A DNA stretch of 51,631 nucleotides. It comes from Methanoculleus chikugoensis. Its GTDB lineage: Archaea; Halobacteriota; Methanomicrobia; Methanomicrobiales; Methanoculleaceae. Shown piece by piece: positions 470 through 25,479 of this stretch. The number at the start of each line of letters is the position of its first letter. Position 1 is the first letter of the stretch. The position numbers and the translations under genes are program-made. The notes beneath the pieces are model-generated. The model had not been told where the DNA came from. It did not search any database and saw only the letters and a program-made list of their open reading frames with translations. The stretch is taken from NCBI RefSeq assembly GCF_900095385.1, contig NZ_FMID01000062.1:1-51631 (forward strand), read 5' to 3'.

Positions 470-1477
470 TTACTTTATTGTTTCAAGTTTGAATAGTCGT
501 TCAATTTCCGAAACAAAGTCTGCTTGGTTGTAGACCAGAAGACCTTCGGCAGCAGGTTTATTGTAGTTTAAATCTGTCTTCGAAATTACTTTCATCGATT
601 TGGGCCATGTTGGGAATGGCAGGTTATCGTAATAGTCGCTACCTCTAGAACAATTAAGATATGTGAAATCCTTCCTTATATCGATGTATCTCCTGAATCT
701 TCCCGGAGTGAATAGATCGTACATATTTTCCAAAATGTCCATCGTATCCCCCCCATATTCTTTTTGCTGCAATTGATACAATCTTCTCCAAAGTTTATAA
801 CCCTCAGATCTCCCCTTTTTCTTCGATAGTTCCACTAAGGCCTCTAACTGTTGTCGAAATATTCCGGGCACTTTTGTGTTAATGTCTTGATATACGCTGA
901 CATCCACTGAAAATTCTAAATCTCTTAAATTTACATTAAAATACTTCTGTCTTAGTACGTCGAGGTGTTTCAATTGGGCACTCATCTCGTATTCTCTTAT
1001 ATCTTCATCAGGATTCCGAGGGACATCGCGAGGGATGATCCTTTCCACAAGTGAATCCATAAGTCTATGATCTTCGAAGCGATATTCAACGTCGAGAATG
1101 TATAACTCACCTGGGTCTAACTCGGTTAAATTAATGCTAAAACCATCAATTGTCCTCTCAACGCAATCAAATAGTGGACATAATCCCCTCATCTGTGTCA
1201 ACTCAACCCGTAGGGGGACGCCATGTGGAAAATCCACAGATTTGGGGTTACCAAAAAGACCTCTTTTGGGGGTGAGAGATAGTGAGTATTTTTGGATGCC
1301 ATCGGAACACATGATGGTCATCTGCTGTCCTTCGATTTTGAAACCGCTTTCTAATGTTTTTTGTAAATTGCCAATATGCTTTACCATTGAGCGAATTGTT
1401 TGCACTACAAGTTCTTTCCCCGCAACTGTTCCAACCCCCGTCGCAATATCATAACTAACAGATGGATCTATCATCAT
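470..1477 (-). CDS. Hypothetical protein, second gene of AT-rich pair
   Basis: I do not recognise this protein of about 335 residues. It is soluble, with no signal peptide or membrane segment. The N-terminal third is mixed, the middle contains a charged helical stretch (around residues 150-240) rich in Lys, Arg, Glu and Gln, and no catalytic motif stands out. The start is set by a GGAGGT Shine-Dalgarno site at 1487-1482, which favours ATG 1477 or ATG 1474 over the upstream ATG at 1489. The gene overlaps the 3' end of the preceding gene by 23 bases, so the two are probably translationally coupled. Its base composition is clearly more AT-rich than the rest of the window, which suggests recent transfer. 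Confidence 0.7.
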   Translation of the reverse strand: MMIDPSVSYDIATGVGTVAGKELVVQTIRSMVKHIGNLQKTLESGFKIEGQQMTIMCSDGIQKYSLSLTPKRGLFGNPKSVDFPHGVPLRVELTQMRGLCPLFDCVERTIDGFSINLTELDPGELYILDVEYRFEDHRLMDSLVERIIPRDVPRNPDEDIREYEMSAQLKHLDVLRQKYFNVNLRDLEFSVDVSVYQDINTKVPGIFRQQLEALVELSKKKGRSEGYKLWRRLYQLQQKEYGGDTMDILENMYDLFTPGRFRRYIDIRKDFTYLNCSRGSDYYDNLPFPTWPKSMKVISKTDLNYNKPAAEGLLVYNQADFVSEIERLFKLETIK

Positions 1478-25326: not shown

Positions 25327-25479
25327 GGGGTCGTGGCCAAGCCCGGAATGGCGACGGGCTCCAGCGGTCTTTGCACGTGATGAACAATGGGTCTCCTGAC
25401 TTACGGATGATGACCCGTTGGAGCACTGATGCATGTCGGAGAGACCCGTCGATCGTGAGTTCAAATCTCACCGACCCCA
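25327..25479 (+). tRNA. tRNA-Trp(CCA) with intron
   Basis: The mature tRNA is 25327-25364 joined to 25444-25479. Pairing is complete: acceptor GGGGTCG/CGACCCC, D stem GCCA/TGGC, anticodon stem ACGGG/CCCGT around CTCCAGA with anticodon CCA, and T arm GTGAG-TTCAAAT-CTCAC. A 79-base intron splits it after position 37. The junction forms a textbook bulge-helix-bulge: four-pair helix CTCC/GGAG with three-base bulges AGC and AGA. The CCA end is not encoded. A TATA-like CTTATAC lies about 36 bases upstream. Confidence 0.95.
25365..25443 (+). ncRNA. C/D-box guide RNA in the tRNA-Trp intron
   Basis: The intron has box C GTGATGA (25377-25383), D' CTGA (25396-25399), C' ATGATGA (25407-25413) and D CTGA (25426-25429). 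The guide before D' (GGGTCTC, 25389-25395) pairs with 25441-25447 so that the fifth base from the box faces tRNA position 39 (C39). The guide before D (CCGTTGGAGC) pairs with 25358-25367 and its fifth base faces C34. Both duplexes cross a splice site, so methylation must precede splicing. The same two sites (Cm34, Um39) are known targets of the Haloferax tRNA-Trp intron; here position 39 is C. Confidence 0.92.

Follow-up and report, generated by a model that had tools for sequence, protein, structure and literature searches.

A guide for Cm34 and Um39 lies within the tRNA-Trp intron of Haloferax, and a 2008 study counted such guides in no fewer than 29 archaea (PMC2584109); it stated that the guide is always intronic and argued for Haloferax that methylation must come before splicing. 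In PMC11408192, deletion of the Haloferax intron is cited as abolishing both methylations and is described as viable. An intronic Cm34/Um39 guide is also described in Pyrococcus (PMC7994747), and in a 2018 review (PMC6313347) the table entry on the tRNA-Trp intron reads 'Cm34 and Um39 (or Cm39)'.

Here we describe the tRNA-Trp locus in a 51,631-nucleotide stretch of the Methanoculleus chikugoensis genome (contig NZ_FMID01000062.1, hereafter the window). The tRNA-Trp intron guide system is already known in kind and main detail, the C39 form of the window is usual among relatives, and the locus is one further example of this system. Among the closest known systems is the Rfam family sR3 (RF01133), with which the intron shares all boxes, both guides and a full-length match; the family consensus has G at D′ guide base 5, i.e. 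a C39-type guide as in the window, and the only difference worth recording is four extra bases between boxes D′ and C′ in the window. The Haloferax volcanii pre-tRNA-Trp (Clouet d'Orval 2001 and Singh 2004, as reported in PMC2584109 and PMC11408192) has the same intron position (37/38), a dual guide, the same two targets and duplexes across both splice sites, but the window has C39 instead of U39, G at D′ base 5 and an intron of 79 rather than 103 nt. The initial annotation gave position 39 of Haloferax as U, in agreement with PMC2584109, and the G31-C39 pair that it described is present in the window. Moreover, the boxes of the window are canonical, whereas CCGA is frequent in haloarchaea-like relatives. 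By its published description, Pyrococcus sR50 is likewise an intronic dual guide for positions 34 and 39 of tRNA-Trp (PMC7994747, PMC6313347), with Um39 listed (PMC6313347) where the window has C39.

Structure of the precursor and its guide duplexes

The gene for tRNA-Trp with anticodon CCA and its intron occupies positions 25327-25479 on the plus strand, exactly the coordinates of the initial annotation. With cmscan and Rfam, the tRNA model RF00005 matched 25327-25479 (48.1 bits, cut-off 29) and sR3 matched 25373-25431 (60.1 bits, cut-off 41) over model positions 1-55 of 55. ARAGORN did not report the tRNA-Trp gene at 25327-25479, which we attribute to the intron. For the guides, tRNA positions were set from the paired stems by a script and the guides were then tested in the N+5 register. 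The features are as follows, with their sources in brackets.

25327-25364, plus strand: tRNA-Trp 5′ exon, from the acceptor 5′ strand to G37 (sequence, cmscan, N+5 register script)
25365-25443, plus strand: intron, 79 nt, after G37 at the canonical position 37/38 (read from sequence; agrees with the minimum-energy fold)
25377-25383, plus strand: box C, GTGATGA (sequence; Rfam sR3 alignment)
25387-25395, plus strand: D′ guide, 9 bp (N+5 register script)
25396-25399, plus strand: box D′, CTGA (Rfam sR3 alignment, register script)
25407-25413, plus strand: box C′, ATGATGA (sequence; Rfam sR3 alignment)
25415-25424, plus strand: D guide, 10 bp (N+5 register script)
25426-25429, plus strand: box D, CTGA (Rfam sR3 alignment, register script)
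25444-25479, plus strand: tRNA-Trp 3′ exon, with A38 at 25444 and C39 at 25445 (sequence, register script)

C34 is at 25361, and the 5′ strand of the anticodon stem, ACGGG (27-31), pairs with CCCGT of the 3′ exon, including G31-C39. The bulge-helix-bulge of an archaeal tRNA intron is found at the exon-intron junctions, where a 4-bp helix of CTCC (32-35) and GGAG (intron −6 to −3) is flanked by 3-nt bulges, AGC and AGA; it was read from the sequence and the minimum-energy fold agrees. The locus is very probably an ordinary archaeal pre-tRNA-Trp with an intron, and the archaeon is probably a member of the order Methanomicrobiales. The genome is 2.65 Mb in size, and a neighbouring Fae-HPS fusion gene is in keeping with a methanogen of this order.

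The four boxes C, D′, C′ and D, all of which the initial annotation had recognized, are canonical and stand in that order. Bases 2-11 of the D guide pair with tRNA positions 31-37 and intron bases 1-3 (10 bp, one G-U), which places guide base 5 (G) opposite C34 at N+5, and bases 1-9 of the D′ guide pair with the last three intron bases and positions 38-43 (9 bp, one G-U), which places guide base 5 (G) opposite C39 at N+5. The proposed registers and the spanning of both splice sites by the duplexes therefore hold as originally described. Upon removal of the intron the D duplex falls to 7 pairs and the D′ duplex to 6 pairs, so the unspliced pre-tRNA-Trp is the likely substrate of both guides; this was a reasonable proposal of the initial annotation, but one that had already been published (PMC2584109). 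Both guides are linked to the same anticodon-stem pair, 31-39, so that a change in it must be matched at two guide positions. A full-length model match, the box order in an intron at 37/38 and N+5 registers on both 34 and 39 place the intron among the sR3 (archaeal tRNA-Trp intron) guides. Genes for box C/D methylation proteins are present as well: in the same genome, a fibrillarin gene (E 5.6e-59) adjoins a Nop-domain (Nop5) gene (E 4.9e-41).

Judged from sequence, the intron is very probably a dual box C/D guide of the sR3 kind that directs 2′-O-methylation of C34 and C39 on the unspliced precursor. In this mechanism the guide RNA would be bound by L7Ae, Nop5 and fibrillarin, the D guide would direct methylation of C34 and the D′ guide that of C39, and the splicing endonuclease would cut the bulge-helix-bulge only afterwards. 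We infer the making of the methyl groups, their order and the action in trans from the Haloferax work.

Guide and target in relatives

The class of the window was sampled with 232 genomes (one order, six families), and sR3 matches were present in 193 of them, and in 130 of the 135 good ones; in the phylum they were present in 260 of 391 genomes. The introns of relatives labelled haloarchaea-like (this label and 'Archaeoglobi-like' are inferred groupings) escape the sR3 model and were retrieved by a guide-independent pattern of the 5′ exon, which was used in place of an earlier pattern with a fixed variable loop that gave no match in 20 genomes. Both guides were present in all 33 loci retrieved in this way (L048-L080).

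The alignment of guide and target in relatives, which the initial annotation had put forward as a check, was made with 143 precursors of the phylum in which both guides were assigned (63 distinct guide/target combinations). Box motif and spacing, and not pairing, decided which D′ box was taken; for haloarchaea-like introns the spacing rule was derived from members in which a single box can be assigned. In these precursors 95% of D′ cells were paired in register, compared with 26-40% when the guide was slid by 1-3 bases, which shows that the D′ pairing is not chance. The search for the D box used the motif YTGGAG, which itself dictates D guide bases 3-8, and no weight can be put on the constancy of these bases. 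For positions 31 and 39, D′ base 5 and D base 2, the joint state G,C,G,C was found in 106 of the 143 precursors, A,U,A,U in 25, A,U,G,U in five and A,U,A,G in two; the remaining five are other G31-C39 cases, two of them with a D′ register that is off by one base. Of the 111 cases with G31-C39, 109 have G5 in the guide, and A31-U39, which is confined to haloarchaea-like genomes, is accompanied by A5 in 27 cases and by a G5 wobble in five. Position 41 also co-varies with the guide (C with G, A with U), and at position 43 the guide tracks the target in the haloarchaea-like L050 and L052 and not in the Archaeoglobi-like group.

These data show that guide and target co-vary, mainly via one deep split and with exceptions. 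The clean co-variation that had been claimed stands insofar as positions 31 and 39, D′ base 5 and D base 2 move together, but the five U39-G5 cases and the two shifted C39 registers make it less than clean. Since nearly all of the 31-39 contrast falls on one split of the tree, the independent co-variation events are few. In L056-L060, from one haloarchaea-like family, the D′ guide has G opposite U39, so that the methylation target itself lies in a wobble pair, and in L119 and L132 an additional base ahead of the D′ box would shift N+5 from C39 to A38.

Alternative readings and direction of the change at position 39

The complementarity might instead reflect splicing structure only, with pairing between intron and anticodon arm making the bulge-helix-bulge and the boxes being incidental. 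The bulge-helix-bulge really forms between intron and exons, and the D′ guide is similar to the 5′ strand of the anticodon stem, both as this reading expects; but guideless tRNA-Trp introns in which the splice-site ends are retained occur in relatives (31 nt in L081, 96 nt in L082), and canonical box spacing and the N+5 register of the guides are held throughout the phylum. We therefore give this explanation almost no credence. Slightly more room, though still little, is left for the view that the D guide for C34 alone is functional and that the D′ guide, aimed at position 39, is a remnant undergoing decay. The D′ guide is less well kept than the D guide in relatives, which speaks against a dual guide: their D duplexes nearly always have 9-11 bp and their D′ duplexes often 6-8 bp, D′ register shifts and mismatches occur in some genomes (the latter at position 41 in L133 and L163), and D′ base 9 does not track C43 in the Archaeoglobi-like group. 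However, the D′ duplex of the window is whole over 9 bp, and D′ bases 5 and 7 track target changes to U39 or A41 in relatives, so that we think this unlikely and keep to the intron as a guide for both C34 and C39.

The remaining alternative concerns the direction of change. The initial annotation read C39 as having replaced U39 in this lineage, with a matching change of the guide, and its starting point was Haloferax, which reversed the polarity. Haloferax, the best studied system, does have U39, and U39 is reported for Pyrococcus (PMC6313347), which lies outside the phylum, so that the polarity given here applies within the phylum. Nevertheless, within the phylum every guide-bearing precursor that is not from a haloarchaea-like genome has G31-C39, and L048, whose intron is of the haloarchaeal type, retains C39 with G5 while A41 with U7 is already present. 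A change of the guide from the Haloferax state is thus not supported, and a recent origin of C39 from U39 in this lineage seems highly improbable. In these comparisons most precursors of the phylum combine G31-C39 with G5, and U39 was probably acquired by the haloarchaea, with the guide adapting afterwards; the simplest reading places this change inside the haloarchaea or shortly before them. The comparison corrects the polarity, with C39 and a G-type guide as the common state of the phylum.

Guide loss and candidate free-standing guides

Several families of the phylum have intronless tRNA-Trp (L084-L097), one genome has a 31-nt tRNA-Trp intron without guide (L081), and in another, of the order of the window (G128), the 96-nt intron of L082 keeps its splice-site ends and has neither guide. 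Given such guideless introns and intronless genes, the guide is separable from splicing and can be lost, which is in line with the viable intron deletion in Haloferax described in PMC11408192. In another genome (G318) two different intron-bearing tRNA-Trp genes were found (L110 and L146), the second with the guide type of another family (like that of L111); this second gene may be assembly contamination or a transferred gene.

With a strict pattern, genomes with intronless tRNA-Trp or a guideless intron yielded no stand-alone guide except L172, and the genome of L082 yielded no stand-alone replacement. A contig scan gave 15 U39-type guide matches, of which 14 are bacterial and were taken as chance, and only L172 was retained. 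The latter (916-980, plus strand, genome G517) is a free-standing C/D RNA with a terminal stem GGTTCC/GGAACC and sub-threshold Rfam C/D matches. Its D guide has 10 pairs with the pre-tRNA-Trp of its own genome (L260, minus strand), spanning the junction between 5′ exon and intron, with C34 at N+5, and no other position of this precursor pairs with the guide in a run of more than 5; the precursor has its own 34-nt intron, without boxes or guide. The search pattern pre-fixed six of the guide bases, and the chance of the further agreement is ∼0.03. The L172 RNA as a C34 guide is a lead, not proof.

Decayed tRNA-Trp copies were also found in the order of the window, in two species of one genus (L140 and L148, genomes G179 and G168; 2 of 39 genomes), at ∼1.2 kb from the intact pre-tRNA-Trp. 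In these copies the exons are eroded and the anticodon is lost, while the guide core is intact; the differences seen between the decayed and the intact copy lie outside the guide core, in changes too few for significance. L172 and these decayed copies raise the possibility, which we advance only tentatively, that the tRNA-Trp guide can leave the intron and act as a free guide in trans. If this is true, the statement that the guide is always intronic (PMC2584109) has exceptions, and a free-standing guide for pre-tRNA-Trp would be a natural test of whether selection acts for the modification or for the intron.
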